From the NCBI RefSeq assembly GCF_013155295.1, contig NZ_JABJXT010000001.1, positions 310,001 to 374,000 on the forward strand: DNA of 64,000 nt, given 5' to 3'. The notes below the pieces were generated by a model. That model did not search any database. It saw nothing but the letters and a program-made list of their open reading frames with translations, and was not told the DNA's origin. How positions within the stretch are numbered: position 1 is the stretch's first letter; every line of letters begins with the position of its first letter. The translations under genes and the position numbers were made by a program. This document shows, in pieces, positions 7,085 through 46,646 of the stretch. Source of the stretch: Pseudogemmobacter hezensis. Its GTDB lineage: Bacteria > Pseudomonadota > Alphaproteobacteria > Rhodobacterales > Rhodobacteraceae.

Positions 7085-7092
7085 GGGCGTCG

Positions 7093-10115: not shown

Positions 10116-10127
10116 AGGCGAAAGCAG

Positions 10128-10997
10128 ATGACCACGGCAGGCAAGCTGGACGGGGCAGGCAAGGTTGACGGGGCGGGCAAAGTGGATGGGGCAAAGCCGG
10201 TTCCGCGCCTTTTCTTCGGGGCGCGGGATGGGCATGAGACCATCGAACAGGGCAGCCGCACCCTGCCGCAGGAATTTGCCGTGGCCCTGTCGTTCAACGG
10301 AACCACCCAGGCTGTGATGATGGCAACCCCCGCCGATCTGATTGATTTCGCTTATGGTTTCGCGCTGACTGAGGGCATCGCCCAGCCCTCCGAGGTCGAA
10401 GAGATCACCGTGGTTCAGGGGGAGCGCGGCATCGACGTGCAATCCTGGCTGGTCCCAGAGGCCGAGGCCCGGCTGGCCGCCCGCCGCCGCACTATGGCAG
10501 GCCCGGTCGGCTGCGGCCTTTGCGGCATCGACAGCATCAATGAGGCCCTGCGCGAGCTGCCGCCGGTGCCGCCAACCACCTTCCGCATGACGCCGGCCCA
10601 GGTGCGCGAGGCCATTGCCGCCCTGCCCGCCCATCAGCCGCTGCATGATGCGACCCGCGCCGCCCATTGCGCCGCATATTGGACGCCCGCCGGGCTGTTC
10701 GCGGCCCGCGAAGATGTCGGCCGCCACAATGCGCTGGACAAGCTGGCGGGCCATCTGATCCGCCATGACCACCTCGAAGGCGCGGTCGTCCTGACCAGCC
10801 GCGTCTCGACCGATATGGTGCAAAAGGTTGCCGCCATCGGCGCGGGCGTGCTGATCGCAGTCTCTGCTCCCACGGCGGATGCGGTGGCGCTGGCCGATCA
10901 TCTGGGCATCACCGTGATCGCGCTGGCGCGGCCAGAGCGGTTCGAGCTTTTCACCCATTCAGACCGGATCGTGACCGAGGACACCCATGCAAGCTGA
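10128..10997 (+). CDS. fdsC: FdsC, FdhD-family formate dehydrogenase maturation/sulfuration factor
   Basis: The 289-aa protein belongs to the FdhD family, which receives sulfur from a cysteine desulfurase and transfers it to the molybdenum cofactor before insertion into FdsA; R. capsulatus FdsC does this for FdsA. The family motif GCGLCGI (C-x2-C) and the downstream AREDVGRHNALDKL and SRVSTDMVQK stretches are present. The N terminus is unusual: residues 5-22 are three copies of a hexapeptide (GKLDGA, GKVDGA, GKVDGA) encoded by an 18-bp tandem repeat and not part of the fold. It starts 12 bp after fdsA and overlaps fdsD by 11 bp. Confidence 0.93.
   Translation: MTTAGKLDGAGKVDGAGKVDGAKPVPRLFFGARDGHETIEQGSRTLPQEFAVALSFNGTTQAVMMATPADLIDFAYGFALTEGIAQPSEVEEITVVQGERGIDVQSWLVPEAEARLAARRRTMAGPVGCGLCGIDSINEALRELPPVPPTTFRMTPAQVREAIAALPAHQPLHDATRAAHCAAYWTPAGLFAAREDVGRHNALDKLAGHLIRHDHLEGAVVLTSRVSTDMVQKVAAIGAGVLIAVSAPTADAVALADHLGITVIALARPERFELFTHSDRIVTEDTHAS
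10140..10193. repeat. In-frame 18-bp tandem repeat in fdsC, three units
   Basis: Units GGCAAGCTGGACGGGGCA, GGCAAGGTTGACGGGGCG and GGCAAAGTGGATGGGGCA begin at codon 5 of fdsC. The third positions differ while the hexapeptide is nearly kept. Confidence 0.9.
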
Positions 10998-11220
10998 CCA
11001 GATCAACCCGAAAATCGCCCGCATGGCCAATCAGATCGCCATGTTCATGGAGTCAAAGCCCGAGGCCGAGGGCGTCGAGGGCCTCTCCAGCCATATCAAC
11101 GACTTCTGGGAGCCCCGGATGCGCCGCCAGTTCTTCGCCTTGGTCGATGCAGGCGGTGACGGCCTGCGTCCGCTGGTGCTGAAAGCCGCCGAAAAGATCC
11201 GCCGCCCCGCCGCCGACTGA
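10987..11220 (+). CDS. fdsD: Formate dehydrogenase delta subunit FdsD
   Basis: The 77-aa protein matches the small FdsD family in length and in the IARMANQIAMFM and SHINDFWEPRMRRQF segments. FdsD is an accessory subunit required for stable, active soluble formate dehydrogenase. It has no metal ligands. It is the last gene of the operon, overlapping fdsC by 11 bp, and is followed by a convergent gap to the phosphopantetheinyl transferase gene. Confidence 0.92.
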   Translation: MQADQINPKIARMANQIAMFMESKPEAEGVEGLSSHINDFWEPRMRRQFFALVDAGGDGLRPLVLKAAEKIRRPAAD

Positions 11221-11243
11221 CGCAAAACCAGGGCGCAATTTCC

Positions 11244-11279
11244 CTGTCAGCAGCCGGTCACCTGTCAGCAGCTGGTCAG
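11244..11279. repeat. 18-bp direct repeat, two units, in convergent gap
   Basis: CTGTCAGCAGCCGGTCAC and CTGTCAGCAGCTGGTCAG are adjacent, followed by a partial third copy (CAGCTGAC). The array lies between the fdsD stop and the end of the biosynthetic operon. No classical terminator was seen in this gap. Confidence 0.75.
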
Positions 11280-11322
11280 CAGCTGACATCCAGGCCTGCC
11301 GGGCAGCCAAAACCAGCAGGCG

Positions 11323-12003
11323 TCATATCCAGGCGACAGCCAGGATATGGCCTGCGCAAATTGCGATCCGACCATTGATGCGCCCTGTCGGCAATGCGGG
11401 CGAAGCCGCCAGACACGCCTCAAACCGATCCCCCTCAATCGAGATCACGATATCTTCTGGCCCAAGGATACGCTGCGACAGCGGATATTGCGCCTTATAG
11501 GCGGCCTCTTTGGCGCAAAACAGCATCAGCGCGGGGTCACCCCCGGCCATTGCGGCATCCGCCTGAACCTGATCCAAAGGCCCGGTGATCAAAGCAGCCA
11601 ACCCCGGATCCAGCGCATGCAGCGGCTCTGCATCCAGCCCGATCCCGCTTAGCCCCTTCCCTGACAGATCGCCCGCAGAGCGCTTCAGGGCAACCGCCGC
11701 GATACAGGCCTCAGCCGAATGGGTGATCGAGCCGACCAGCCCATCGGGCCAGACAGGCGCCCGGTCCGGGCCTTTGGGAATGGCAGAGCGCACCCGCCCC
11801 AGCCCGGCCATCGCCTGCCGCGCCGCATGGCGGCCAGCGGAAAACTCGGCCGCCCGCCGCGCGACCATACCGCCGGTATCCTCACCCGTAAGCAGCGGAT
11901 AATGCTGCCAGGGAAGCGCCGCGCCCAGCGAGACGCCGGATGACACATCCGCTGGCAACAGGGCCAGGGCCCTCGCCGCCAGGGCCTCCCCCCGCTCAGG
12001 CAT
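11323..12003 (-). CDS. 4'-phosphopantetheinyl transferase (Sfp/EntD type)
   Basis: The 226-aa enzyme activates carrier proteins by moving phosphopantetheine from CoA onto their serine. Motifs present: RRAAEFSAGRHAAR (residues 49-62), as in EntD-type enzymes; GSITHS (91-96); the magnesium-binding IGLDAE with D124 and E126; and FCAKEAAYK (162-170) with the catalytic K165-E166. The ATG at 12003 overlaps the NRPS stop codon, so it is co-translated with its likely substrate; a longer frame reaching upstream to 12414 only shadows the NRPS gene. It is the last gene of the PKS/GT/NRPS operon, and the ACP (PKS Ser1839) and PCP (NRPS Ser1445) are its obvious targets. Confidence 0.93.
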   Translation of the reverse strand: MPERGEALAARALALLPADVSSGVSLGAALPWQHYPLLTGEDTGGMVARRAAEFSAGRHAARQAMAGLGRVRSAIPKGPDRAPVWPDGLVGSITHSAEACIAAVALKRSAGDLSGKGLSGIGLDAEPLHALDPGLAALITGPLDQVQADAAMAGGDPALMLFCAKEAAYKAQYPLSQRILGPEDIVISIEGDRFEACLAASPALPTGRINGRIAICAGHILAVAWI

Positions 12004-15000
12004 CAGGGGCCACGCCACGCCGCGCCAGCCGCAGGGCACGCCGCCGCGCCATGGCCTCATCCAGCCCGCCAGGCATCGGGGCGGGTCGCGCCGCAAGCGG
12101 CTGCGAGCTTGCCACACCCACCGGGGAAACGGCCGGGACAACAGCCGGGGCAGCCTGCGCCGCCGCATAGGCCGGGGCCTGCAGCGGCACAATCGCCGCC
12201 ACGCCCGCAGGCCCGGCAATATGCGCGACCAGCGCCTCCAGCACCGGGAAGCGGAAGATGTCGGTGATCGAAACCTTCGCCTGCGGCAAACGCTCGCGGA
12301 TCTCGCGGTGGGTCTGCACCGCCAGCAAAGAATGGCCGCCAAGGGTGAAGAAATTGTCCTTCGGCCCCACCCGCGCCACACCCAGCACCCGCGCCCAGAT
12401 CCGGGCGATCTCATTGCCGATCGCCGGATCAGGCGCGCCAGCCGCAGCCAAAGGCACCCCTTGCGCCGCCACCACAGGCGTCGCGGCCTCAGGCGCTGCG
12501 GGCCCGGCCTCGGGCAAGAAGCGGTTCGGTGCCGGCAGCGCCTTACGGTCGACCTTGCGGTTCGGTGTCAAAGGGAAGCGCTCAACCGCCACATAATGCG
12601 CGGGCCGCATATGTTCGGGCAATTCGCGGGCCAGCGCGGCCCGCAGATCCGCCTCTACGGCCCCACCACTGATATAAGCGACCAGGCGCAGATCGCCGGG
12701 GCTGTCCTCACGCGCCATTACCACCGCCTGGGTCACGCCAGGCTGCGCCTCCAGCACCGCCTCGATCTCGCCCAGCTCGATCCGGTAGCCGCGCAGCTTC
12801 ACCTGCGCATCGGCCCGCCCGATATAGTCGATGCGACCATCCGCCCGCCACCGCACCAGATCCCCGGTCTGATACATCCGCCCCGCCCCATCGGCGCCCG
12901 GATGAAACGGATTGGCGCGGAACCGCTCGGCAGTCAGATCCGGGCGCTGCCAATAGCCGCGCGTCACCCCCTCGCCGCCGATCCACAGCTCGCCCTCAAT
13001 GCCAGGAGCCACGGGTTGCCGCGCCTCATCCAGCACATAAAGCTGCTGGTTCGCCAGCGGCGTGCCGATATTGACCACCGCCTCGGCCGCGCCAACCTCT
13101 TCGACCGAGGACCAGATCGTCGTCTCGGTCGGCCCATACATGTTCAAAAGCCGCCCCACGCCCGCCGCTTTCAGATCAGTCGCCAGCGCACCGGGCAGCG
13201 CCTCACCACCGACCATCATCGTGCGGATCCCGCGCAAGGCGCTGCGGCTTTCCTCCGCCATCAGGATCATCCTGGCCATCGAGGGCGTGCATTGCAGATG
13301 CGTCACGCCATGGCGATGGATCTGCGCCGCGATTGAGAAATCATCCGCCGCAGGCCCGCCCTCATTGGCCAGCCGCACCACCTCGGCCAGGGGCCTCAGC
13401 CCCTCCAGCACCACATCCGGCGCGATGCCGTAATCGACAAGGCAGGCCACCTCGCCAACGCCGATTGCCTTCAGCTCTTCAACCCGGGCCAGCGCATCGT
13501 CAATGGTGCCGAAAAGGCCTGATTCCTCGAAATAGCGCTGGAAGGCGAAATCAAGGATCGCCTCGTTTTCCTCAGCCGACAGCGCCGCCAGATCAATATC
13601 CATCGGATTGGCCGCGCCTGCGGGTTTTTTAAACGCCGGAAAGGCCCAGGCATATTGCTTGACCAAAGCCGCAGCCGAGGCGAGGTAGGATTTCATCGGT
13701 CCTTCCGCCACCCGCCGCGCCTCTTCGCGCGTGGCCGCAATATAGGAATGCAGCATCAGCGTGACGGTGAAATCCGCCGGATCATGGCCTGCCTCACGCA
13801 GGGCCGCGTGATAGATCGCAATCTTTTCAGCCACTTCGGCAATCGACTGGCCCAAAAGATGGGTCAGCACATTGGCGCCCGCCCGCCCTGCCTCGGCCCA
13901 GGTCTCAGGGTTGCCGGCGGTCGTCACCCAGACCGGCAGCTCGGATGAGACCGGGCGCGGCTGGGTTTTGACCGTGAAACTGCTGCCATCGGCTTTGGGG
14001 AAATCCACCCCCTCACCGCGCCACAACGCCCGCACATCGCGGATCGCCTGGAACATCGCCGCCTTGTTCTTTGGCGGCGCATTTTCCGGGCGCAGCACGA
14101 AATCATCGGGGTGCCAGCCAGAGGCAAAGGCCAGCCCCGCCCGGCCTGCGGTCAGATTGTCGATCACCGCCCATTCCTCGGCAATTCGCGCCGGATGGTG
14201 CAAAGGTGCCACGACAGACCCCGCCCTGACGCCGATATTCGACGTCACCGCCGCCACCGCCGCCCCCGTCACACTCGGGTTCGGATAGGGGCCGCCGAAG
14301 GCATGGAAATGACGCTCGGGCGTCCAGACGGCGACGAAGCCATGCTGATCGGCAAAGCGCGCCCCATCCAGCAAAAGCTGGTATTTCTTCGGCCCCGGCC
14401 CGTCATCATTGCCCCAGTAGTAAAGCGAGAAATCCATCCTGGCAGCCGATGTGATCCGCCCATTCGAGACCAGCGCCCGGTTCTCATCCGAGGAAATCAC
14501 CACTTTAAAACCACGCGCCAGCGTCCAGAACAGCTCCAGCACCGAGATATCAAACGACAGCGAGGTCACCGCCAGCCAGCAGCCAGGCCCGTTTTCCTGC
14601 CCGGCCCCGATCCGCTGATCCATGCCGGTAAAGAAATTCGCCACATTGCGATGCTCGACCTGCACGCCCTTGGGCCGCCCCGTCGAGCCAGAGGTATAGA
14701 TCATATAGGCGACATCTGCAGGGCTGACGCCGCTTTGCGGGTTGGCCTCTGGCGCAGTCGCCAGACGCGGATCGCGGTCCAGCACCAGCTTTGCAACGTC
14801 CCCCGGCAGGCCCGCCAGCAGATCCGATTGCGTGACGATCACCTTGCAGCCGCTGTCCTCGGCAAACAGCGCCAGCCGTTCCGCCGGATAGGCCGGATCC
14901 ATCGGCACATAGGCGCCGCCCGCCTTCAGGATGGCCAGCGCCCCCGCCACCAGATCAACGCTGCGCCGGGTCGCAAGGCCGACCAGAACCCCCGGCCCCA

Positions 15001-16663
15001 CACCCATATCGCGCAAAACATGCGCCGCCCGGTTGGCGCGGGCGTTAAGACCCGCATAGGTCAGGCTCTCGCCCTCAAAGGCCAGAGCCACCGCATCCGG
15101 GCTGCGCAAGACGGCGGCTTCAAAGGCGGTGTGAACCATGACCCTGCGATCATGGTCCTGGTCCGTCAGGTTGAAGCCATTGATAACCTGCTCATATTCC
15201 GCAGACGTCAGCCCGGGAAGCGCGGCAGGCGGCGCCTCTGCATGCCCAGCCAGCTCACCCGCAATATAGGCAATCCGCGCCGCCAGCGCCGCCGCTGTAT
15301 CCGCATCCAGCCGCCCCGCGTCCCAGAGCATCGCCCCGGGCGTCAGCACCAGCGCCGCGCCGGGCACCCCCCCCTCACCCGAGATCGCAACAGGCGGCAT
15401 CACCAGCCCCGCCAGCGCCCGATCCCTGGTCATCAGATCCAAAGGCCAGCCGCTGGCAGGCCGCGCCAGTTCCGCCCGCAAAGCCGCCAATGCCGCGCCA
15501 ACCGTCTCGCCCGCGATGCGCAAAGGCTGCCACGGCGCGATATAGCCGGGGCGACCTGCCGCTGCCCTGGCGAAATCGCCCGCGCTCATACCAAGCGCCC
15601 GGATACCGGCCAGCGCAAGTTCCGCCAGATCACGCGCTCCGCCAGGCCAGGCAATCTGACGCCAATCCGCAACCCCGGCCCCGCGATCCAGCGGCACCCC
15701 AACCGGATGCAGATCCTGCAATGCCGCCCGCAGCTGCGCTTCATGCGGCGCAACCGCAGCCAGATCAGCCGTCAGCGCTGCCCCCTCTTCCGCCGACAAA
15801 ACAGGCAACCAGGCCGCATCCACAGACGCGGCCGAAACCGCCCCACCAGAAACCTGACAGCTCAGCCGAGCCAGCCGCACCGCCCCATCCGCGCAGGCCA
15901 CAACCAGCCCATCCGCTCCGGCTGAAAGCACCGTGCCGGGCTGCCCCTCGCCCACAACTGCCGTCGCTTCACCGACATTCAGCACCTCATGTCCGGTGTC
16001 GATCTTCGCCGTCGCAACCGGGTTCCAGTAGCGCCCATGATCGAGGCCCCGCACCAGCCGCACCACCTCGGCCACAGGTCGCGTGAAATCGATCCGCCCC
16101 ATTGCCACAGGCCTGTCCGCCCCGCGATGCATCACCCCCGGCACATCCGCCTGCGCCCGCGCCTCAGCGCCGCTCTCAAGCGCCGCTATCACCTCGGGGA
16201 AGCTGTCCAGGCCTTCCTCAAAACAGCGCGTGTTCAGCGTCAGCGCCGTCTCATCCGGGGCCAGATCAAACCGCCGCTCGGCCAGGATGCGCCCCTGATC
16301 GACGCCGCCCTCAATCAGATGCCAGGTCACGCCATGCCGGGCCTCACCGCCCAGGATCGCCCAGACCGGCGCATTCAGCCCGGCATGTTCGGGCAAAGGC
16401 CCATCGTGGAAATTCACCGCCCCCTTGCCTGCCCGCGCCAGCACATCGCCCCGCAAGAGCCGCAGATTGGCAACCGAGAGGATCCAGTCCGCCGCCGGCA
16501 GATCCGCCAGATCACAAAGCGCGATCCCCCCGGCCCGCGCCCAGTCCCGCAGCGCAGGCGCCTCGCTGACCACCGCGACGATCTTATGGCCCCGCGCCAG
16601 CCACAGCGCCCCGCATTCGCGGGTCAGAGTCTCATTGCCGATCAGAATTGCGCTTTGGCTCAT
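11996..16663 (-). CDS. NRPS with formyltransferase, split adenylation/luciferase-like monooxygenase and PCP domains
   Basis: Domains of the 1555-aa protein: (a) residues 1-290, formyltransferase and its C-terminal subdomain, with N84, H86 and D122 spaced as in methionyl-tRNA formyltransferase; (b) 300-490, a C-domain-like remnant with no HHxxxDG; (c) 500-735, adenylation first half, with YTSGSTGRPKG (654-664) and SLSFDISVLELF; (d) about 743-1090, a luciferase-like flavin monooxygenase of the MupA/Atu3671 kind; (e) 1107-1380, adenylation second half with NMYGPTETTIW and LRGYRIELGEIE; (f) PCP with LGGHS, Ser1445. Binding-pocket residues read by eye are DILQMGMIWK, close to the glycine code. There is no thioesterase. 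It overlaps both neighbours by about 4-8 bp. I expect a formylated, perhaps oxidised, glycyl-S-PCP; the chemistry is inference. Confidence 0.93.
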   Translation of the reverse strand: MSQSAILIGNETLTRECGALWLARGHKIVAVVSEAPALRDWARAGGIALCDLADLPAADWILSVANLRLLRGDVLARAGKGAVNFHDGPLPEHAGLNAPVWAILGGEARHGVTWHLIEGGVDQGRILAERRFDLAPDETALTLNTRCFEEGLDSFPEVIAALESGAEARAQADVPGVMHRGADRPVAMGRIDFTRPVAEVVRLVRGLDHGRYWNPVATAKIDTGHEVLNVGEATAVVGEGQPGTVLSAGADGLVVACADGAVRLARLSCQVSGGAVSAASVDAAWLPVLSAEEGAALTADLAAVAPHEAQLRAALQDLHPVGVPLDRGAGVADWRQIAWPGGARDLAELALAGIRALGMSAGDFARAAAGRPGYIAPWQPLRIAGETVGAALAALRAELARPASGWPLDLMTRDRALAGLVMPPVAISGEGGVPGAALVLTPGAMLWDAGRLDADTAAALAARIAYIAGELAGHAEAPPAALPGLTSAEYEQVINGFNLTDQDHDRRVMVHTAFEAAVLRSPDAVALAFEGESLTYAGLNARANRAAHVLRDMGVGPGVLVGLATRRSVDLVAGALAILKAGGAYVPMDPAYPAERLALFAEDSGCKVIVTQSDLLAGLPGDVAKLVLDRDPRLATAPEANPQSGVSPADVAYMIYTSGSTGRPKGVQVEHRNVANFFTGMDQRIGAGQENGPGCWLAVTSLSFDISVLELFWTLARGFKVVISSDENRALVSNGRITSAARMDFSLYYWGNDDGPGPKKYQLLLDGARFADQHGFVAVWTPERHFHAFGGPYPNPSVTGAAVAAVTSNIGVRAGSVVAPLHHPARIAEEWAVIDNLTAGRAGLAFASGWHPDDFVLRPENAPPKNKAAMFQAIRDVRALWRGEGVDFPKADGSSFTVKTQPRPVSSELPVWVTTAGNPETWAEAGRAGANVLTHLLGQSIAEVAEKIAIYHAALREAGHDPADFTVTLMLHSYIAATREEARRVAEGPMKSYLASAAALVKQYAWAFPAFKKPAGAANPMDIDLAALSAEENEAILDFAFQRYFEESGLFGTIDDALARVEELKAIGVGEVACLVDYGIAPDVVLEGLRPLAEVVRLANEGGPAADDFSIAAQIHRHGVTHLQCTPSMARMILMAEESRSALRGIRTMMVGGEALPGALATDLKAAGVGRLLNMYGPTETTIWSSVEEVGAAEAVVNIGTPLANQQLYVLDEARQPVAPGIEGELWIGGEGVTRGYWQRPDLTAERFRANPFHPGADGAGRMYQTGDLVRWRADGRIDYIGRADAQVKLRGYRIELGEIEAVLEAQPGVTQAVVMAREDSPGDLRLVAYISGGAVEADLRAALARELPEHMRPAHYVAVERFPLTPNRKVDRKALPAPNRFLPEAGPAAPEAATPVVAAQGVPLAAAGAPDPAIGNEIARIWARVLGVARVGPKDNFFTLGGHSLLAVQTHREIRERLPQAKVSITDIFRFPVLEALVAHIAGPAGVAAIVPLQAPAYAAAQAAPAVVPAVSPVGVASSQPLAARPAPMPGGLDEAMARRRALRLARRGVAPDA

Positions 16664-17712
16664 ATCTCTTCTTCCCTGCTTTGCGGCATCGCCGCCCAGA
16701 GCGGTAAATCATGTTCAGGCGTCGCCCCTTCGGGCATGGGCGTCATGCCAAAGCCGCGCCGCATATCGTGCGCGACCAGATCGCGCAGGTAATGCGGCGG
16801 ATCCATCCGGTCGCGCCCGCGCTGCACCAAAAGCCGCGCCCGCCAGATCAGCCCGCCAAGCGCCGCAAACACCGTCGCCGCCGCCGCATAGGCACGACCA
16901 TGGTTCTTGGCGAAATAATGCAGCCTGGAATCCAGCCAAAAGCCCGGAATCCGCTGCCAGCGCCCCATACCTGTCGAGACTGATCCGATATGCGCCACCC
17001 GGCTTTCTGGCACATAATCCGTGGGCCATCCGGCGCGGGACGCCCTGAGGCAAAGATCCGTCTCTTCGTAATAAAGGAAGAACCGCTCATCAAAGAGGCC
17101 GATCTCTTCCAGCACATCCATCCGCATCATCAGGCTGGCCCCCGCCAGCCAGTCCACCCGGGTGACCGATGCCAAAGGCGGCATCGCCACCATGCTGTTT
17201 TTCATCGCCTTTGAGACCAGTCCCAGCCGGATATGGCGCTCAAAATCATTCAGCGCGGTCGGATAGCGAAAGGCGGTGTGATGCGGCGTGCCATCCTCGC
17301 CATGGATAAAGCTGCCCGCAAATCCGGTGCCGGGGTTCTGGTCCAGATGATCGCGCAAGACCCGTATCGCATCCGGCGCAGGAAAGGCGTCCGAGTTCAG
17401 GATATAGACATAGTCAGGCCGCACCCCACCCGGAAACCCGGGCGGCAGACCTGCGCGGATACCGACATTATTGCCCGCGCCGAAACCGCCATTGCGCCCT
17501 GACTGCAGCACCCGAACCGGGGTCTCGCCCTGGTCCCAGCCACGCGCAGTGACCGCCTTTTCCATCACCTCAAACGAGCCATCCCCCGAGGCGTTATCCA
17601 CGATGGTAATCGCGCCCCGGACACCCTGCATCGCCGCCAGCGCGCTCTCGGCCGAGCGCAAACTCATCTCAGCCGAGCGCCAGTTCAGAATGATCGTCAG
17701 AACGCTTGCCAT
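16660..17712 (-). CDS. GT2 glycosyltransferase, rhamnosyltransferase-like, inside the PKS/NRPS operon
   Basis: The 350-aa protein is a GT-A fold, family 2 enzyme: VDNASGDGS near residue 40, RNGGFGAGNNVGIR, the DxD-like NSDAF, and FDERFFLYYEETDLCLRASR, a set typical of WbbL/rhamnosyltransferase-type enzymes. A hydrophobic stretch near residue 290 may attach it to the membrane. The ATG at 17712 is preceded by GAAGG and lies 10 bp after the PKS stop; an upstream frame to 17883 only overlaps the PKS tail. Its stop overlaps the NRPS start (ATGA). It may decorate the PKS/NRPS product; dTDP-rhamnose genes are present at 32.9-36.2 kb. Donor and acceptor are not proven. Confidence 0.9.
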   Translation of the reverse strand: MASVLTIILNWRSAEMSLRSAESALAAMQGVRGAITIVDNASGDGSFEVMEKAVTARGWDQGETPVRVLQSGRNGGFGAGNNVGIRAGLPPGFPGGVRPDYVYILNSDAFPAPDAIRVLRDHLDQNPGTGFAGSFIHGEDGTPHHTAFRYPTALNDFERHIRLGLVSKAMKNSMVAMPPLASVTRVDWLAGASLMMRMDVLEEIGLFDERFFLYYEETDLCLRASRAGWPTDYVPESRVAHIGSVSTGMGRWQRIPGFWLDSRLHYFAKNHGRAYAAAATVFAALGGLIWRARLLVQRGRDRMDPPHYLRDLVAHDMRRGFGMTPMPEGATPEHDLPLWAAMPQSREEEI

Positions 17713-17722
17713 CACTTTGCCT

Positions 17723-20700
17723 TCACTCTGCAGCCGTTGCCGCATCTGCACTGGCCCTGCCTGCTGTGGCCCTGCCTGCTGTGGCCCCGTCTGCCTTGGC
17801 CCGGTGTGCCTTGACCGCACCGTCATCGCGCAGATCCAGCGCCTCCAGCATCCTGGCCAGGTTTGCAGCCAGCACGCGGACATTGGGCTCCAGCACCATG
17901 GAATCGTGATCGCCCGGCACTTCGACCACCTGCAGCACGGGCGCGAAACGCGTCAGGTCATTGTCCTCAAAGACATATTCCTTCGCCGCCGAGACCCATT
18001 TCCCGCCCGAGACCTGCCAGTGACGATCCAGCGCCGGACGGTAAAGCACCGTCGCGCCCTCGTGCTGCGTCATCTGATAGCGTGGCAAAGCGGCGCGGAA
18101 AGCGGCCTCAATGGCGCGATTGTGGAAGCCCTCTTCCTCGGCGGGGGTGGCCCGCTTGCGCCGCTCCCATTCCATACGGTTTTTCGCCCATTCGGCCAGA
18201 TAGCCCGGTCCTTTGCGCCGCAGCTCGGCCAGTTTGATCAGCGCCCTGTCGCGGCGGCTAAGCCCTGGGCGCATCGGCAAAGGCGTGTCCAGCAGCACCA
18301 GCAGCGCGACCTCTTCGCCCGCCTCACGCAGCTGGCGCGCCATCTCCCAGGCGATCAACCCGCCGCCGGAAAAGCCGCCAAAGCGGTAGGGGCCATGCGG
18401 CTGCACCTGCCGCAGCTCGGCCAGATAGTCGCGGGCCGCGAGGGTGAAGTCCTCATGCGGCTGATCCTCGCCGAAAAGGCCCCGCGCCTGCAGGCCATAG
18501 AAGGGCCGGTCACGCCCGATCAGCTGCGCCAGATGACGCAGGTTCAGCACATTGCCAAACATCCCCGAGACCAGGAAGAAGGGCGTCTTGCCGCCCCCCC
18601 TCTTGCCATCGGCCATCTGCACCAGATGCGTGAACCGCCGCGCAGGCTGCGCCGTATCAGACCGCCCGCTGCCCAAAGACGCAGCGCCCGGCGCGCCATC
18701 GCCCTGCGGCTGATCGGTCGCATCGGGCAGGCCCGCCGCCTCACGGATCAGCCGGGCGCAGGCCGCGATCGTCGGGGCCTCGAAGAGAACCGAGATCGGG
18801 AAATCCACCGCCCAGGTCTTTTTAACCATCGCAAAAAGGCGCACCGCAATCAGGCTGTGGCCGCCGAGGTCGAAGAAATTATCCTCGACGCCCACCTGGC
18901 CCACCCCCAGCAGATCCTGCCAGAATCCGGTCAGCACGCGCTCGGTCTCATCACGCGGCGCGATATAATCGGTGTCGAGATCGGGGCGCTCAAAGCTCTG
19001 GCCCTGTTTGCGCGGGGCCTCGACCAGGGCGGTCTGACGCATCAGCGCCGGCAGATCCAGCGAAGAGACGATGATCTGCGCCAGCCCGCCTTGCTGCCCC
19101 GCCGCCACAGCGCGGCCAAAGGCCTCTGCCCCCTCATCAGGCCGGATGCCCTGACGATAGGCGGTCAGCAACCGCTCTTCGGCGGGCGAGGGCTGCGGCA
19201 AGGCGGTGCTTTCCGCCTCCAGCAGGCGCGGATCCGGGGGCGCGATCTGCAAAGGCCCATCCAGGCGGCGAATAGTAAAGCCCCGAATCTCAGCCAGAAC
19301 CCGCCCGTCAGGCGTGGCAAGCGTGATGTCAAACACCGCCGTCGGGCGGTCGGCAGCATTCGGGCCGGCATTGCGGATATGGCTGATCAGCGCAGGCTCC
19401 AGCGGCGCAAAAAACCGGGCTGAGGCATAGCCCAAAGGCACCCAAAGCCGATCCGGCTGATAGCCCGCGATCAGCCCCATCGCCCAGCCGGTGGCCAGAT
19501 CCAAAAGCGCCGGGTGCAGATGCCACCCCTCAGCAGGCTCATCACGGAAGGGCGCGGCCAGCGACAATTCCGCCAGCCCCTCATCCACACCAAAGGCCTG
19601 GGACCGCAGCACATGCCAGCGCGGGCCAAAGCGCAAAAACGCCTCTTGCGGGCTGGTCAGCCAGGCCTCGGCGCCACCCTCACGCGGTTGCGCCTCTTCC
19701 CGCGCGCGAAGCCGCGCCGCGATTGCTGCGGGGTCGATCCCCGCTGCAATCGCATCCGGTGCAACAGATAACACCCGCCCCGTCGCATGCGTCAGCCAGC
19801 CATCACGCCCCTGAACCTGCAGCCGCGACTGAACCTCAAACGCGTAAGCCTCTCCCTCAGGCAGCAGCCGCACCCGCAACTCGCGCGTCTCACCATCGGC
19901 CAGATCCAGCGCGGCAAGGAAAGTCAGATCGCGCAGCTCGATCCCATCCGGGCCAAAGCCAGCCGCCCCCGCCTCTGGCCCGCCACCAGCCGCCAACCGC
20001 ACCTCTGCCAGCCAGGCCTCAGCCACCAGCTGCAAATAGCCGGTGCCGGGCAGCAGTGCCTGGCCCTCTTTGGTGCGGTGCCCGTCAAAGATCCAATCCG
20101 CCGCATCGGCCCTGGCAAAGAACACCCGGTTCCCGGCCTGATCATATCCCGCCTCAGCGAGCATCGCGCCCGCCCGCGGCGCCAGCGGCACCCGGGGGGC
20201 CTCAGGGCGGCCCATCCGCTCGCCCAGGCTGTCAGCCGCCATGCCGACGCCCTGCCAGATCCCCCAGTCCAGCGCCACAATTCGACGCCGCGCCGCATAG
20301 CGCCGCCCATCTGCGCCATCTTCGGCCCCATTCGCCCTTTGCGCGAAAGCGTTCAGATATTCATTCGCCGCCACATAATCGACCTGGCCCGCAGGCCCGG
20401 TCACCGTCGAGCTTGACGAAAACAGCACCATCAGCGCGATGCTGCCATCCGGGAACACCCGGTCCAGAACCCCTGTTCCATGCAGTTTTGGCGCGAAAAC
20501 CTCTGCAACCGCCCCCGGCTCTTTGGCCAGAAGCGGGCCATCCGCCACCATCCCAGCCGCATGGATCACCGTATGCACCGGGCCAAAACCGGCCTCGGCC
20601 TGATCGCGCGCCGCCTGCATCTGCGCCAGATTGGCCACATCCGCCGCCAGCACCTGCACCCCGGCACCGCTTAAACCGGCACCGCTTACCCCGTCAGCCA

Positions 20701-23700
20701 GTGCCTCCAGCCGTTCCAGCGCGAGGATCCGGCGCGAGACTGGATCGCCGGGCGCATGGCGGACCAGCCAGGCCGCCCGCGCCGGCCCCTCGGGCAAAGT
20801 GCTTCGCGCGATCAGCGTCACCCTTGCGCCATAGCGGCGGATCATATCCTCGGCAATCGTCAGCCCGATGCCACCGAAACCGCCCGTAATCAGCAGATGC
20901 GCGCCCTGGGGCAGATCAATCTGCGCCTCTGGCAAGGGCGCGGGCCGCAGCCCCAACTGGTAACGCCGCCCGCCCCGCAGCGCGAAAGCCTGGCCGCTTT
21001 CGTGATCCGACAGCGCCTCTTCCAGAACTGCGTCAACCAGCGCCTGGGGCAAAACCTCACCCCGTTTCAGAGCGGGCAGTTCAAGATCCAGCTGCGACAG
21101 CACCAGCCCAGGAAGCTCTTTGCCCGCGACCAGCACCGGCCCGCGCAAAAGCGCCTTTTCCGGCCAGCGCAGGCCCGAGCCCTTCACCGCCGCCGCGCCA
21201 TTGGTCAGGAAGGTCAGCCGCAGCCCATCCGTCAGATCCTCTCCCGCCAGCGCCTGCAACAGATAGAGCGCCGACCAGAAGCCCTGCTCGACTATCCTTT
21301 GGGCAAAATCCGATCCGGGGCGGAAACTCTCGTCTTTGGTCAAAAGCCAGCCATGCACGATCCGCGCAGGGGCCAGATCAGCCGCCAGCAGATCACGGAT
21401 CAGCGCCTCATACCCCTCACGCCCCTGCTCTGGCGCAAGGCTATAGCGGCTGGCCGAGTGGCGGCGGTAGCCATCGCCCGGCGTGATCCGCGCAACGCGA
21501 TGGCCTGCTGCCTCAAGCCTGGTGGCAAGCGCGGCGCAAAGCCCGGCATCATCCTCGAATATCGCCCAGGTCTGCGCCGGGGCGGCGGCCAGGTCATCAA
21601 TGTCAAAGCTGGCGGCCGCCGCGCTCCAATGTGGTTTCCAGCCCCAATCGGTCAGATCCCCCATGCGGGCGGGGGCCTCTTCGCGCGGCGCTGCAGCCGC
21701 GCCGGGCGCGATGAAATAGGGTTTGCGCTGGAAGGCATAGCCCGGCAGCGGCACCCGCTTGCGCCTGCGCCCGCCCCAGATCGGGGCCCAGTCCACCGCC
21801 ACACCGCAAGCCCAAAGCCGCGCGATCGAGCCGATCAGCCAGGCATCATCGGCGATCTTCTGTTCAGGATGGCGCAGCGCAGGCACCACCTGGCCCGGCG
21901 CCACCCCATTCGCCCCCGCCAGCGATGAAAGCGCCCGGCCCGGCCCCATCTCGATATAGACGCGGCCCGGCGTGGCGGTCAGATGCGCCAGCCCGTCGCG
22001 GAAGTTCACGGTATTGCGCAGATGCGCGACCCAGTAATCGGGGCTGGTCGCCTGATCCGCAGCCAGCACCTGGCCCGTGCGGTTCGAGATGATCGGGATC
22101 TGCGGCGCGGAAAGCCGGATCCCGCGCAGATAATCGCCAAACGCCCCCAGGATCGGATCCAGCATCCGGCTATGGGCGGCGATATTGATGGCGATGCGCT
22201 GCGTCTCGACCTCATCCGCCAGGAGCCGCGCCGCCAGCGCATCAAGCGCCGCATCCGGGCCAGAGACCACGCAAAGCCCCGGCGCATTGACCGAGGCCAT
22301 ATCCAGATCATCGGCCCAATAGCGGGCCAGATCAGCCTGCGACAGCGGCACCGAAAGCATGCCGCCCGCAGGCACCGTGTCAAACAGCCGCCCCCGCAGC
22401 AGCACCAGCCCGATGCAATCCTCGAACGACATCACGCCCGCCAGAGCCGCGGCGGTATTCTCGCCCATTGAATGACCGATCAGCGCGGCGGGGCGGAGGC
22501 CCCAGCTCTCATAAAGCTTTGCCAGCGCATATTCGGTGATCATGATCAAAGGCAGCTGGGCCGAGGGCTTTTTCAGCGCCTCATCCGCCGCTTTCTCTGC
22601 GCCGGGCGCGGGCAACCACAGCGCCCTGATGTCATAATCCAGCTGCGGCTGCAGGATAGAAAGGCCGCGCTCCATCCAGTCGCGGAAGACCGGCTCGGTC
22701 TCGTAAAGATCACGCGCCATGCCCGCAAACTGCGCCCCGCCACCGGGGAACATGAAGACGGTCTCGGGGTCGTCACCCAGGTAATCATGGTTAAAGACCA
22801 GGCGCGGATTGGCCCCTTCCAGAAGCGAAGCCGCCTCTGCATGGCTTTGCGCCACGATCACCCGGCGTTTCTCGAACGCGCGGCGGCCCTCTTTCAGCGT
22901 CCATGCCACATCGGCCAGCGGCTGATCAGGATGGTCGCGCAGATGCGCCGCCAGCCGCGCTGCCTGCCCGTCCAGCGCCGATTTTGAGCGCGCCGAGAGC
23001 ACCAGCGGCTGGAACGGCCAGTCGCTTTCCTCTGACGCGGCGACTGCAGGGGCCTCTTCCAGCACCGCATGGGCATTGGTGCCGCCGACGCCCAGGCTGT
23101 TGACGCCCGCCCGCAGCACAGGCGCATCCCAGGGCTTCAGCCGGTCATTGACGTGAAAGGGCGAGGTCTCAAAATCAATCGAGGGGTTCGGGGCCTCAAA
23201 CCCCAGGCTCGGCGGCAGCTCACGGTGATGCAGCGACAGCGCCACTTTGATCAGGCTGGCCACACCCGCCGCCGTGTCGAGATGGCCGATATTGGTTTTG
23301 ACCGAGCCGATGCCGCAATGGCCGATCCGGTCGGTGGTCTCGCGGAAGGCCTCGGTCAGGGCGGCAACCTCGATCGGATCGCCCAGATAGGTGCCGGTGC
23401 CATGGCATTCGATATAGGTGACCGTATCGGCGGTGACGCCCGCGATGGCCTGGGCCTCGGCGATGCAGGCCGATTGCCCATCGACCGAGGGCGCCAGATA
23501 GCCCGCCTTGGCCGCGCCGTCATTGTTGATCGCCGTGCCCTTCAGGATCGCCCAGATATGATCGCCGTCGCGGATCGCATCAACGGCGCGGCGCAGCACC
23601 ACACAGCCCGCGCCCGAGCCGAACACCGTTCCTTGCGCGCGGTGGTCGAAGGCGTGGCAATGGCCATCGGGCGAAAGGATCTCGCCCTCCTGGAACAGAT

Positions 23701-24370
23701 AGCCCCTGGCATGCGGCAGCTCGATGGTGACGCCACCCGCCAGCGCCATATCGCATTCGCCGCTCAGCAGCGCCTGAGCCGCGTAATGAATGGCGACGAG
23801 ACTGGTGGAACAGGCGGTCTGGACGTTGACCGACGGGCCTTTGAGATCAAGGATATGGCTGGCGCGGGTGGCCAGGAAATCCTTGTCATTTCCGGTATGG
23901 CGCAGCAGAAACATCCCCGTCTCTTCGACCAGATCCGGGTTCGAGCAGAGGTTGAAATAGAAATAAGATCCCATGCCGCAGCCCGCCCAGACGCCGATGG
24001 CGCCGGGGAATTTCTCGGGCGGGTGGCCTGCGTTCTCCAGCGCCTCCCAGGCGACCTCCAGGAACTGGCGGTGCTGGGGATCAAGGATCGCAGCCTCTTT
24101 GGGCGAAAAGCCAAAGAAATCCGCGTCGAAGTTTTCAAATCCGTCAAGGATGGCGGCCGAGGGGACGTAATTCGGCCGCTCGATCCGGGACGGGCTTTCG
24201 CCGGCAGCCAGCAGCTCTTCGCGGGAAAGAACCCGGATCGATTCAACGCCCGCCCGCAGATTGGCCCAGAAGGCGGCGATATCGGCCGCGCCCGGCAAAT
24301 GCGCCGCCATCCCGACAATGGCGATGTCAGTCTCGGCCAGGCCGCCAGCTTTACGCGTCATCTCACTCAT
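17723..24370 (-). CDS. Type I polyketide synthase, KS-AT-KR-DH-ACP-TE
   Basis: One extension module with release, 2215 aa. KS: residues 14-440, C187 (TACSTS), H323 (ECHGTGT), H363 (KTNIGH). AT: 535-830, S634 in GHSMGE and AAHSRML. A structural KR half lies at about 905-1110; catalytic KR at 1155-1345 with TGGFGGIG, a Ser cluster at 1318-1321, Y1332 and N1336. DH: 1415-1710 with H1431 before LLPGTGYL and D1624 in HPALLD. ACP: S1839 in LGGHS. TE: 1915-2175, S2001 in GFSGGG and H2155. DH follows KR, the reverse of most cis-AT modules. No methyltransferase or enoylreductase. The C-terminal 25 residues are a degenerate pentapeptide repeat. First gene of the operon; ATG with GGGACG upstream. Malonyl-CoA is the likely extender, not certain. 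Confidence 0.95.
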   Translation of the reverse strand: MSEMTRKAGGLAETDIAIVGMAAHLPGAADIAAFWANLRAGVESIRVLSREELLAAGESPSRIERPNYVPSAAILDGFENFDADFFGFSPKEAAILDPQHRQFLEVAWEALENAGHPPEKFPGAIGVWAGCGMGSYFYFNLCSNPDLVEETGMFLLRHTGNDKDFLATRASHILDLKGPSVNVQTACSTSLVAIHYAAQALLSGECDMALAGGVTIELPHARGYLFQEGEILSPDGHCHAFDHRAQGTVFGSGAGCVVLRRAVDAIRDGDHIWAILKGTAINNDGAAKAGYLAPSVDGQSACIAEAQAIAGVTADTVTYIECHGTGTYLGDPIEVAALTEAFRETTDRIGHCGIGSVKTNIGHLDTAAGVASLIKVALSLHHRELPPSLGFEAPNPSIDFETSPFHVNDRLKPWDAPVLRAGVNSLGVGGTNAHAVLEEAPAVAASEESDWPFQPLVLSARSKSALDGQAARLAAHLRDHPDQPLADVAWTLKEGRRAFEKRRVIVAQSHAEAASLLEGANPRLVFNHDYLGDDPETVFMFPGGGAQFAGMARDLYETEPVFRDWMERGLSILQPQLDYDIRALWLPAPGAEKAADEALKKPSAQLPLIMITEYALAKLYESWGLRPAALIGHSMGENTAAALAGVMSFEDCIGLVLLRGRLFDTVPAGGMLSVPLSQADLARYWADDLDMASVNAPGLCVVSGPDAALDALAARLLADEVETQRIAINIAAHSRMLDPILGAFGDYLRGIRLSAPQIPIISNRTGQVLAADQATSPDYWVAHLRNTVNFRDGLAHLTATPGRVYIEMGPGRALSSLAGANGVAPGQVVPALRHPEQKIADDAWLIGSIARLWACGVAVDWAPIWGGRRRKRVPLPGYAFQRKPYFIAPGAAAAPREEAPARMGDLTDWGWKPHWSAAAASFDIDDLAAAPAQTWAIFEDDAGLCAALATRLEAAGHRVARITPGDGYRRHSASRYSLAPEQGREGYEALIRDLLAADLAPARIVHGWLLTKDESFRPGSDFAQRIVEQGFWSALYLLQALAGEDLTDGLRLTFLTNGAAAVKGSGLRWPEKALLRGPVLVAGKELPGLVLSQLDLELPALKRGEVLPQALVDAVLEEALSDHESGQAFALRGGRRYQLGLRPAPLPEAQIDLPQGAHLLITGGFGGIGLTIAEDMIRRYGARVTLIARSTLPEGPARAAWLVRHAPGDPVSRRILALERLEALADGVSGAGLSGAGVQVLAADVANLAQMQAARDQAEAGFGPVHTVIHAAGMVADGPLLAKEPGAVAEVFAPKLHGTGVLDRVFPDGSIALMVLFSSSSTVTGPAGQVDYVAANEYLNAFAQRANGAEDGADGRRYAARRRIVALDWGIWQGVGMAADSLGERMGRPEAPRVPLAPRAGAMLAEAGYDQAGNRVFFARADAADWIFDGHRTKEGQALLPGTGYLQLVAEAWLAEVRLAAGGGPEAGAAGFGPDGIELRDLTFLAALDLADGETRELRVRLLPEGEAYAFEVQSRLQVQGRDGWLTHATGRVLSVAPDAIAAGIDPAAIAARLRAREEAQPREGGAEAWLTSPQEAFLRFGPRWHVLRSQAFGVDEGLAELSLAAPFRDEPAEGWHLHPALLDLATGWAMGLIAGYQPDRLWVPLGYASARFFAPLEPALISHIRNAGPNAADRPTAVFDITLATPDGRVLAEIRGFTIRRLDGPLQIAPPDPRLLEAESTALPQPSPAEERLLTAYRQGIRPDEGAEAFGRAVAAGQQGGLAQIIVSSLDLPALMRQTALVEAPRKQGQSFERPDLDTDYIAPRDETERVLTGFWQDLLGVGQVGVEDNFFDLGGHSLIAVRLFAMVKKTWAVDFPISVLFEAPTIAACARLIREAAGLPDATDQPQGDGAPGAASLGSGRSDTAQPARRFTHLVQMADGKRGGGKTPFFLVSGMFGNVLNLRHLAQLIGRDRPFYGLQARGLFGEDQPHEDFTLAARDYLAELRQVQPHGPYRFGGFSGGGLIAWEMARQLREAGEEVALLVLLDTPLPMRPGLSRRDRALIKLAELRRKGPGYLAEWAKNRMEWERRKRATPAEEEGFHNRAIEAAFRAALPRYQMTQHEGATVLYRPALDRHWQVSGGKWVSAAKEYVFEDNDLTRFAPVLQVVEVPGDHDSMVLEPNVRVLAANLARMLEALDLRDDGAVKAHRAKADGATAGRATAGRASADAATAAE
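17752..17811. repeat. In-frame 15-bp tandem repeat at the PKS 3' end, four units
   Basis: TGGCCCTGCCTGCTG occurs twice exactly (17752-17766, 17767-17781), followed by TGGCCCCGTCTGCCT and TGGCCCGGTGTGCCT. On the coding strand it gives the Ala/Gly-rich pentapeptide tail after the thioesterase domain. Confidence 0.9.
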
Positions 24371-24822
24371 ACGTCCCGTCCCGGTCGCTGCAGGTATCGG
24401 CCAGATTGCCCGCCTCAGCGCCGTCCCCAGTCCAGGCCCGGCATCCTGCCTGAATTGCAGCCGCCAGCCCTTTGATTACCCAAGCAATATAGCGCAGCCC
24501 CGCGCGAACTCATACCCTGGATACCATCGCTCCCCCTTCATCCCCAGAGCGGGAACAATGCCGCAATTTTGCCGCAATTCCGCTGCGCCAGCGGGCCGAT
24601 AGCGGATGGATCAGCAGCTGCCGCCGCAAAAACAACGCTTTGACGGCCAATCAGGCGCGAGATGCCCCGTCATTCCCCGTCAGTCCGGCAACAATGCCCC
24701 CAACAATGCCCCGGATCAAATTCATGGGAACCGGGGAAACCACAGCCGCCCCCAGCCCCCCGTATTCGCCCCGTATTCGCCCCACCCAAGCCCCGCCCAG
24801 GCCCTGGCTGAGCCCTGATGCC
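24371..24822. other. Intergenic region upstream of the PKS operon
   Basis: This 452-bp gap must carry the promoter for the biosynthetic operon. It holds direct repeats of 11 bp (CGTATTCGCCC at 24761-24771 and 24772-24782) and a doubled AACAATGCCCC near 24690-24710. A TATATT on the minus strand around 24491 could be a -10 box, but I found no convincing -35. No credible gene was seen. Confidence 0.5.
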
Positions 24823-26220
24823 TCAGATAATGGTGCGCCGGGGCGCGGCGGCCAGTTCGGCCTGATGTTTGGCCTGACGGGCCGCCAGCAGCGCCTCGGC
24901 ATGGCCCAAAAGAGCCCCCGCCATCAGCCAGGTCAGCGGCGTCAGCGTGCCATTGGGCAAAAGATCAACCAGGTTCAGCGCCAGGATCAGCGCCACCCCG
25001 GCTGCGTGCAGCCCGACCGCGCCGGGCTTTGCCGCAGCCTCGCGGCCCAGCAGCCACAGGGGCAGGCACAAAAGCCCGAACTGGATGATATAGCCAACCC
25101 AGCCAAAAGCGCCGATGCGGATGATCCAGGCGCCGTCGGCCACCGTTTCGACCTCACCCGTCTGCGCATCATAAACAAAGCCGCGCCCATAGCCGCCCCA
25201 GCCGAACAGCGGCCGCTCGGCGGCGCGGGCCAGCAGTTTGTCCTCATTCATCAGGCGGTAGCCGAAGCTTTGGGCGCGATCCTCGCTAAGCCCGTCAGCA
25301 ATGTCTGAGATCGCATCGACCGGCACCAGATGCGCCCCGCGCAGCAAGGGGTAAAGGATCACAATCGCCGCCAGCAGCCCCGTCACCGCCAGGATCTGCC
25401 GCGGGTTGGCCAGAAAGGCCAGCGGCAGCGCTGCCAGCGCATAGGCGATGGGGCCAAAGCTTTTGCACAGGATCAGAAGCGCACAGACCAGCAGGAACAC
25501 CGGCAGCTGCCAGACCCGTCGCTCAGCCGGGCCGACCCGCAGCGTGATCGCCGCCGCAATCAGGCACGACAGCACGAAAAACGCCACCCACAGCCCATGG
25601 GGCATGAAGACAAAGGGCCTCCAGCCGCCAAAACGCACTGCCTGGCCGAAATCATGCTGGAAATAGCCGTAGACCCAGATGTGCAGCTGCGGCGAAAGCG
25701 CCGATTCAATCAGGATCGGCACGGTGTAAAGCAGGGCCGCAATCACCAGCGCGGTCAGCAGATCGCGCATTGCCTCGGGCGTGGCAAGATCACGCCGCGC
25801 CAGAAACATCGGCAGCAGATACATGAATTCCGTGCCGGTGATGGCGATGCTGTCATAGATCCGCATTCCCGGAATCTCTAACCCGTAGCGCAGGAAAATC
25901 GGATCGGTGTTCAGGATGGCGGTGAAAAAGGGCGAGATCAGAAAGCCCGCAACCAGCACCCGGATCAGGATATTTCCGTTGAATATCTGCAGCCTGCGCC
26001 CCAGCATCAGCCAGGACAGCAAAGCCGCCGTCAGCGCGGGCAGCATATGTTTGTTCGGATCGGGCAGCATCGGCAGGTCGATCTTTGCCAGCTCTGGCAG
26101 CACCATATAGGCCCCCAGCACCGACCAGATCAGCGCCCGCCCCGGCCCCATCCGGCTGTAGAAAAGCCAGACCATCGCAGGCCAGGACAAAAGCGCCAGC
26201 AAGGCAATGGTGGATGACAT
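24823..26220 (-). CDS. O-antigen ligase/polymerase-like membrane protein (Wzy-type)
   Basis: The 465-aa protein is strongly hydrophobic, with about 10-12 transmembrane segments and a large polar loop around residues 300-345 containing FGYRLMNEDKLLARAAERPLFGWGGYGRG, the kind of loop seen in Wzy/WaaL proteins where ERPLFGWG is common. It would polymerise or ligate polysaccharide repeat units on the periplasmic face of the inner membrane. The ATG at 26220 follows AGGAG by 5 nt; the frame remains open to 26592 but the extra N terminus is Arg-rich and not membrane-like. It is divergent from the TagA-type gene and belongs to the exopolysaccharide locus. Confidence 0.85.
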   Translation of the reverse strand: MSSTIALLALLSWPAMVWLFYSRMGPGRALIWSVLGAYMVLPELAKIDLPMLPDPNKHMLPALTAALLSWLMLGRRLQIFNGNILIRVLVAGFLISPFFTAILNTDPIFLRYGLEIPGMRIYDSIAITGTEFMYLLPMFLARRDLATPEAMRDLLTALVIAALLYTVPILIESALSPQLHIWVYGYFQHDFGQAVRFGGWRPFVFMPHGLWVAFFVLSCLIAAAITLRVGPAERRVWQLPVFLLVCALLILCKSFGPIAYALAALPLAFLANPRQILAVTGLLAAIVILYPLLRGAHLVPVDAISDIADGLSEDRAQSFGYRLMNEDKLLARAAERPLFGWGGYGRGFVYDAQTGEVETVADGAWIIRIGAFGWVGYIIQFGLLCLPLWLLGREAAAKPGAVGLHAAGVALILALNLVDLLPNGTLTPLTWLMAGALLGHAEALLAARQAKHQAELAAAPRRTII

Positions 26221-27226: not shown

Positions 27227-27230
27227 GCGG

Positions 27231-46645: not shown

Positions 46646-46646
46646 C

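Follow-up and report, generated by a model that had tools for sequence, protein, structure and literature searches.

Organization of the Operon

The window analysed here is a 64,000-nucleotide stretch of the genome of Pseudogemmobacter hezensis (Rhodobacteraceae), corresponding to positions 310,001 to 374,000 of contig NZ_JABJXT010000001.1 (assembly GCF_013155295.1). At 11323-24370 it carries a four-gene operon encoding a type I polyketide synthase (PKS), a family 2 glycosyltransferase (GT2), a nonribosomal peptide synthetase (NRPS) and a 4'-phosphopantetheinyl transferase (PPTase), which borders a gene cluster for an exopolysaccharide (EPS). The PKS contains ketosynthase (KS), acyltransferase (AT), ketoreductase (KR), dehydratase (DH), acyl carrier protein (ACP) and thioesterase (TE) domains, and the NRPS contains formyltransferase (F), adenylation (A), monooxygenase (MOX) and peptidyl carrier protein (PCP) domains. 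The genes are as follows:

17723-24370, minus strand: type I PKS, one module KS-AT-KR-DH-ACP-TE, 2215 aa, ending in TGA (Pfam, NCBIfam)
16660-17712, minus strand: GT2, 350 aa (Pfam)
11996-16663, minus strand: NRPS starter module, F, putative condensation remnant, A (predicted glycine type) with MOX, PCP and conserved C-terminal tail, 1555 aa
11323-12003, minus strand: PPTase, 226 aa (PF17837, 4PPT_N)

As an earlier note on this DNA had described, the four genes share one strand and are tightly spaced, with a 10-bp gap between PKS and GT2, a 4-bp overlap between GT2 and NRPS, and an 8-bp overlap between NRPS and PPTase. This spacing suggests that they are co-transcribed; promoter- and terminator-like sites across 10900-25000 did not depart from the shuffled expectation by more than one standard deviation. 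The domain assignments of the four genes are far beyond chance. Since one loading module, one extension module, a PPTase of its own and a TE are present, the line looks complete, which the earlier note had also proposed. The combination of domains and genes is not unique to the P. hezensis genome: among the best 80 of 566 relatives, nearly the whole NRPS length is matched in all 80, with a PKS match alongside in 79.

The NRPS Starter Module

The NRPS comprises the following features:

15854-16663, minus strand: F domain, Formyl_trans_N and Formyl_trans_C, residues 1-270, Fmt/ArnA fold (Pfam)
15224-15676, minus strand: putative condensation-domain remnant, about residues 330-480 (AlphaFold model maf3ac615920b and Foldseek)
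14477-15136, minus strand: N-terminal part of the A domain, residues 510-729, with code residues D705, I706 and L709 (PF00501; motif FDISVLELFW)
13379-14431, minus strand: inserted FMN luciferase-like MOX, residues 745-1095 (TIGR04020)
12536-13366, minus strand: C-terminal part of the A domain, residues 1100-1376, with code residues Q1124, M1150, G1152, M1175, I1183, W1184 and K1370
12218-12412, minus strand: PCP carrier domain, motif GGHS (PF00550)
12023-12061, minus strand: conserved C-terminal tail, residues 1535-1547, a possible docking peptide to the PKS

The formyltransferase and the A domain with an inserted monooxygenase, both called from the sequence earlier, are borne out by Pfam matches and by a TIGR04020 score of 471.5 bits (cut-off 244.45). 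The MOX is inserted between the A-domain segments FDISVLELFW and NMYGPTETT, and matches PDB 6KET (PuwE) with E=1.3e-100. Conservation of the NRPS and PKS was followed in alignments of 15 sequences, namely the window and 14 of 19 loci (11 relatives and three plasmids); L063, L064, L069 and L078, in which one of the two genes has no clean full-length frame, and the redundant L075 were left out. Formyltransferases rely on an Asn-His-Asp triad, and N84, H86 and D122 of the F domain are invariant in all 15 NRPSs. The A-domain code reads D-I-L-Q-M-G-M-I-W-K, nine of its ten positions being invariant in the same sequences (position 1150 varies). The textbook glycine code is DILQLGLIWK, and this closeness suggests that the A domain is of the glycine type.

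Between the F and A domains, structure prediction was informative. Residues 1-502 were modelled with a mean pLDDT of 89.7, the best Foldseek matches being methionyl-tRNA and ArnA formyltransferases. When residues 285-505 were modelled alone (mean pLDDT 87.6), the 22 Foldseek matches with E<=0.001 all belonged to NRPS proteins that contain condensation-type or X domains; their TM-scores were moderate (about 0.44-0.60) and the rmsd was high. The ordered part covers ~150 residues, far below the size of a full condensation domain; Pfam gives no PF00668 match in the NRPS, and HHxxxDG is absent from its sequence. Part of this region thus looks like a condensation-domain remnant, predicted to be devoid of working condensation activity, and it is because the remnant is short and lacks both PF00668 and HHxxxDG that the NRPS is read as a starter module.

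At the other end of the protein, the motif [ML]..RR follows a variable linker and falls in the final 30 residues in 73 of 78 NRPS open reading frames (ORFs), 78 of the 80 loci having yielded a full-length ORF by the filter used. This conserved tail may be a docking peptide to the PKS. A relative in genome G121 (L198:10405-13827) has an F-A-PCP NRPS without the MOX insert, with the code DILQLGLIWK and with F triad and carrier intact, and constitutes a natural comparison for the contribution of the MOX.

The PKS and the Glycosyltransferase

The KR-before-DH order noticed earlier in the PKS holds, with KR at residues 1159-1372 and DH at residues 1413-1704 (Pfam, NCBIfam); no enoylreductase (ER) domain was found by Pfam. 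The residues that we take to be catalytic are invariant in the 15 aligned sequences: C187, H323 and H363 in KS, S634 and H733 in AT, Y1332 and N1336 in KR, H1431 and D1624 in DH, S1839 in ACP, and S2001, D2028 and H2155 in TE. The GT2 shows 50-83% identity in the comparison with 15 of the 18 other loci. A plasmid search with this protein returned 38 records, the best being plasmids already matched by the NRPS, and a scan of viral contigs gave no relative.

Linkage of the Operon to an EPS Cluster

An EPS gene cluster adjoins the PKS side of the operon at 24823-42828, the operon forming one end of a Wzx/Wzy-type cluster that extends to about 42.8 kb:

24823-26202, minus strand: O-antigen ligase/Wzy-like polymerase (PF04932, 26.7 bits, under the gathering score of 31.7)
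26495-27226, plus strand: WecG/TagA-type glycosyltransferase (PF03808)
27231-28247, minus strand: family 2 glycosyltransferase (PF00535)
28728-29705, plus strand: EPS tyrosine autokinase-like protein (TIGR03018, below cut-off)
29727-30977, plus strand: Wzz chain-length determinant (PF02706)
31266-31928, minus strand: undecaprenyl-phosphate sugar transferase, WbaP-like (PF02397)
32887-36222, minus strand: rfbA-rfbD-rfbB-rfbC-type genes for dTDP-rhamnose synthesis (Pfam), kept in relatives
36300-37646, minus strand: Wzx-type flippase (PF13440)
37811-39067, plus strand: family 4 glycosyltransferase (PF13692; EpsE-like, below cut-off)
39084-40040, minus strand: family 2 glycosyltransferase (PF00535)
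40034-41731, minus strand: EPS-cluster protein unk1, without Pfam, NCBIfam or PHROGs match
41755-42714, minus strand: EPS-cluster protein unk2, likewise without a match in Pfam, NCBIfam or PHROGs; found close to the operon in 30 of the 80 loci

Three parts of the Wzx/Wzy pathway score above the gathering threshold, namely the initiating sugar transferase (PF02397), the flippase (PF13440) and the chain-length regulator (PF02706).

The 80 relatives used for locus counts, the best of the 566 confirmed, were taken from genome contigs and are nearly all Rhodobacterales, with three Hydrogenophaga. Each fetched locus consisted of the match with 10-kb flanks where the contig allowed, and was searched by phmmer, with 15 EPS genes as additional queries. 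The PKS was recovered in 79 loci, the GT2 in 79 and the PPTase in 72. At least one EPS gene lies near the operon in 79 loci, at least two in 75 and at least three in 64; the set holds the closest relatives only, which biases these counts, and glycosyltransferase matches are generic. None of 20 control stretches of 20 kb, drawn from 11 of 16 operon-carrying relatives, contained EPS genes. The single locus without an EPS match, L082, is on a contig that stops inside the PKS, the same assembly contig as G003. The PKS is absent from L123 (an 8.7-kb contig) and the GT2 from L117, and in L099, L111, L124 and L129 the GT2 match lies elsewhere in the locus and is possibly another gene.

A second set covered 19 regions (16 of 18 operon-type relatives and three plasmids, 40 kb or contig-limited; G009 and G034, with contigs of 3433 and 6768 bases, were left out). 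In 18 regions the operon has EPS homologues on its flanks, the exception being G003, whose contig stops inside the PKS. Gene order is shuffled among lineages, but the operon and the EPS gene set stay together; because the order differs, the link does not merely reflect shared ancestry of one arrangement. The operon is linked, both physically and phylogenetically, to a cluster for EPS biosynthesis. The earlier expectation of one small product from the cluster is supported in part: the line does look complete, but the implied free-standing small-molecule cluster is not supported, as the operon is tied to EPS genes.

Co-Occurrence Across Genomes

Among 60 relatives (the P. hezensis genome included), the GT2 (E<=1e-40) and the Wzy-like gene (E<=1e-20) were found in the identical 18 genomes. 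The unk1 gene was found in 17 of the 60, all GT2 carriers, and nowhere else, and TIGR04020 scored above cut-off in 19, the additional one being the fragmented genome G034. The family was then sampled with 248 genomes, one per genus, at E cut-offs of 1e-60 (GT2), 1e-40 (Wzy-like gene) and 1e-70 (monooxygenase). The GT2 occurs in 81 genomes and the Wzy-like gene in 88, with both in 78 and neither in 157 (Fisher p = 5e-49, ignoring relatedness). The monooxygenase was detected in 85 genomes, 78 of which carry the Wzy-like gene, and all three genes occur together in 75. Restriction of the Wzy-like gene to operon carriers, which holds in the 60 relatives, fails in this larger sample, with 10 exceptions.

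The GT2 was found without the Wzy-like gene in G134, G191 and G280, the G191 contig being just 7335 bases long. Four of the 248 genomes have the GT2 without a monooxygenase match: besides G121, G133 (L196:5496-16514) contains a decayed operon within an EPS cluster, with F triad and PCP motif lost and the PKS frame broken, and in G150 and G191 contig ends truncate the operon, leaving F and MOX matches in the former and F alone in the latter. Conversely, the monooxygenase occurs without the GT2 in eight genomes: G180 (a multi-module line), G253 (an NRPS-PKS pair adjoining an unk2 homologue), G194 and G252 (both short contigs), G034, G154, G183 and G221.

Distant Relatives

Among more distant relatives too, the NRPS-PKS pair can neighbour polysaccharide genes. 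On Shinella and Neorhizobium plasmids, a PKS and an NRPS-PPTase pair, transcribed divergently, both lie between flippase and WecG-/WbaP-type genes. In Aminobacter, PKS, NRPS and PPTase adjoin O-antigen ligase, export and flippase genes, and on a Deinococcus plasmid F, A-MOX-PCP and PKS genes are found among capsule, UDP-glucose dehydrogenase and sugar transferase genes. The PKS of the Deinococcus actinosclerus plasmid (L162:22394-29761) consists of KS-AT-KR-DH-ACP and, at its end, a condensation domain with HHLAADA; no TE match was found. A terminal condensation domain normally passes the chain to an acceptor, and by analogy this domain fits attachment of the chain to a sugar.

Two lines combine the starter with larger machinery. 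In Aliiroseovarius (L163, 18007-31746), an F-A-MOX starter is followed by a KS-AT-KR-DH-ACP-C-A-PCP-TE protein; an annotated GT2 lies about 16 kb from the starter, and xrtD and a VPLPA-CTERM protein are nearby. In G180 (L186/L187), an F-A-MOX protein precedes a large protein with PKS matches. By comparison, the L163 arrangement fits an order in which the starter acts before the PKS.

Three Hydrogenophaga loci (L093, L094 and L095) hold betaproteobacterial NRPS copies with 58% identity. In a tree of 83 NRPS proteins, they group within Rhodobacteraceae (clade of 30 members, support 0.997), and this placement suggests horizontal transfer of the NRPS to Hydrogenophaga. The tree was built without Deinococcus, whose F domain is a separate gene.

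Comparison with Known Systems

The A-MOX modules of myxothiazol and melithiazol are named MtaG and MelG; unlike in an MtaG-type module, no active condensation domain is present here upstream of the A domain. In these pathways and their corallorazine relatives, MOX-containing glycine A domains hydroxylate C-alpha (PMC11342130), and the PuwE monooxygenase has been linked to 2-hydroxylation (PMC4219810); these and the other papers cited are represented by excerpts, to which the comparisons are limited. As in myxothiazol and melithiazol, a luciferase-like monooxygenase is encoded within a glycine-type A domain, the glycine specificity being a prediction in the present case. By the same excerpts, the myxothiazol-type MOX belongs to a chain-extending or chain-terminating module and PuwE stands between PKS and NRPS modules, whereas here the MOX is part of an F-domain starter.

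Loading modules of the type F-A(Gly)-PCP, with a proposed N-formylglycyl starter, are described for conglobatin (CongA), oxazolomycin and phthoxazolin (PtxE) (PMC4504003, PMC5764310). The likeness lies in a formyltransferase, a glycine-type A domain and a PCP forming a separate starter protein that feeds a PKS; the MOX inserted in the A domain, the putative condensation remnant before it and the EPS setting distinguish the present system from what these excerpts describe. The oxazole-forming starter of the conglobatin type, which the F-A(Gly) arrangement brings to mind, is not preferred: the KR is intact and would reduce the keto group needed for the oxazole, and no CongE/OzmP-like cyclodehydratase was recognised among the Pfam/NCBIfam-annotated ORFs of 258-51003, CongE itself not having served as a query.

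Type I PKSs of the RkpA/WcbR kind are known from capsule clusters (PMC3908369), and the PKS studied here is likewise encoded inside a polysaccharide cluster. From their description in the excerpt, they differ from it by its NRPS partner, its KR-before-DH order, the lack of ER, its TE and its aminoacyl starter. In the related organism Phaeobacter inhibens, the PKS Inhi_1972 and the NRPS Inhi_1974 are listed under secondary metabolism (PMC4062626); by their numbering, they too would have one gene between PKS and NRPS. Consistent with the earlier note, which named no characterised product for this combination, no characterised cluster of such composition was found in the open-access full-text literature (subscription papers not being searchable).

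Proposed Function and Alternatives

The operon is probably an EPS-dedicated assembly line whose product is a C4 N-formylaminoacyl unit. Because it is tied to the EPS cluster, and its GT2 recurs in 81 of the 248 sampled genera, its product is most likely an EPS building block or substituent and not a released small molecule. In the scheme proposed, the PPTase would arm the carrier domains, the NRPS would load glycine on its PCP, as the A-domain code predicts, and the F domain, whose triad is intact, would formylate it. Where present, the MOX may hydroxylate the alpha carbon, to judge from its relatives; this step would be optional, since the G121 enzyme has no MOX domain. The PKS would then accept the starter and add one C2 unit, which KR would reduce and DH possibly dehydrate. 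The resulting C4 chain could be, for example, 4-formamido-3-hydroxybutanoyl or 4-formamidocrotonoyl, and might or might not bear oxygen at C4. Release of the chain, or its transfer to the sugar repeat unit at a hydroxyl or amino group, would fall to the TE, while GT2 and other transferases would build that unit and the Wzx/Wzy-type genes would export and polymerise it. We infer the order from NRPS to PKS from the condensation remnant, the conserved tail and the Aliiroseovarius gene order.

Several observations weigh against a dedicated EPS role. Among the ORFs scanned, none was recognised as an acyltransferase for the product, and a free small acid would be just as compatible with TE, KR and DH. 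In Methylobacterium (L161), NRPS and PKS are adjacent with only weak EPS-type matches (GT4, rfbB) nearby, and no EPS query genes occur within about 18-20 kb of the starter in L163 and G180; because of these last two lines, the F-A-MOX module is not in itself an EPS enzyme. Of the 85 genomes with the monooxygenase, seven are without the Wzy-like gene, which was not found in the three Hydrogenophaga genomes either, in a search run without a positive control. Finally, 10 of the 248 genomes have the Wzy-like gene without the operon's GT2. The monooxygenase is present in three of them (G154, G183 and G221) and missing from the other seven, six of whose neighbourhoods were covered (G113 was left out): G116, G128, G140, G173, G210 and G225 have EPS-type genes without PKS/NRPS in the 18-20 kb around the Wzy-like gene. 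As these six neighbourhoods are without PKS/NRPS, the operon would decorate or complete some members of a wider EPS type.

That the line makes a free natural product, such as a signal, metallophore or antibiotic, and that its EPS linkage reflects co-regulation or a shared genomic island, both serving surface-attached life, appears unlikely. A complete assembly line with TE and PPTase would suit such a role, the same starter heads ordinary multi-module lines in L163 and G180, and roseobacter PKS/NRPS genes are presented as secondary metabolism in the excerpt of PMC4062626. Yet the operon sits among EPS genes in several gene orders and tracks a polymerase-like gene genus by genus, and its EPS setting recurs in Rhizobiaceae and Deinococcus. 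Furthermore, no natural-product-type export, resistance or siderophore-receptor gene was recognised by Pfam in the 29 neighbouring ORFs of 258-51003, where transport matches are limited to the EPS flippase and a below-threshold porin match at 3058-3765. An Atu3671-type siderophore was likewise set aside, no siderophore transport or receptor gene having been recognised in these 29 ORFs.

A chemical variant of the EPS assignment would have the MOX cleave the starter, alpha-hydroxylation yielding a glyoxylyl-PCP, so that the unit would derive from a C2 aldehyde-acid and not from formylglycine. This would parallel the myxothiazol-type reaction, in which hydroxylation of glycine at C-alpha eliminates the amine part so that glyoxylate stays bound to the carrier (PMC11342130, in excerpt). 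We regard it as quite improbable, as the conserved F domain would then be hard to explain and the MOX-less NRPS of G121 keeps F, A and PCP.

A very doubtful alternative is that the PKS acts repeatedly and that the polysaccharide is carried or anchored by the resulting lipid or polyketide, to which GT2 adds the first sugar. Such a role has been proposed for capsule PKSs of the RkpA/WcbR type. The GT2 lies between PKS and NRPS in most loci examined, and wcbR/rkpA PKS genes are present in capsule clusters (PMC3908369, in excerpt). Against it, no ER was found, which leaves no saturated chain without a partner, and the starter is an aminoacyl-PCP module. The cluster also has its own WbaP-like initiating transferase, and WbaP-type enzymes normally use undecaprenyl phosphate. 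In addition, L099, L111, L117, L124 and L129 have no GT2 match between PKS and NRPS.

Returning to the EPS unit, a broader proposal, which we hold tentatively, is that there exists a class of EPS in which an N-formylglycine-derived C4 acyl group made by an NRPS-PKS is a regular part of the repeat unit, spread over about a third of the sampled family genera as well as Rhizobiaceae, Hydrogenophaga and Deinococcus. Assembly-line enzymes are already known from polysaccharide synthesis; what this system appears to offer is an unusually clear genomic signal, with a proposed chemistry. The open-access full-text literature yielded no description of an NRPS-PKS pair that makes part of an EPS, a silence that is weak evidence of novelty because subscription papers are not searchable. 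PKS/NRPS genes are routinely counted as natural-product clusters. If the EPS assignment is right, a prediction often made for marine and freshwater Rhodobacteraceae is being misread, and assembly-line enzymology decorates structural polymers; if the broader class exists, many 'secondary metabolite' predictions of this type would be polysaccharide genes. Nitrogen-containing acyl groups of this kind could, moreover, influence how biofilms form and how cells come into contact with algae, plants and phages.

Flanking Genes

On the PPTase side, 4054-10997 encodes a LysR regulator, NuoE- and NuoF-like subunits, a formate dehydrogenase alpha subunit and fdhD; fdhA and fdhD adjoin the operon in all 10 same-genus regions examined. 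Beyond the EPS cluster, 43135-51003 encodes a Heparinase II/III-like protein, purH, a type II signal peptidase, a DUF3035 protein and two M16 peptidases, and a tRNA-Glu (ttc) lies at 62101-62175 of the window.

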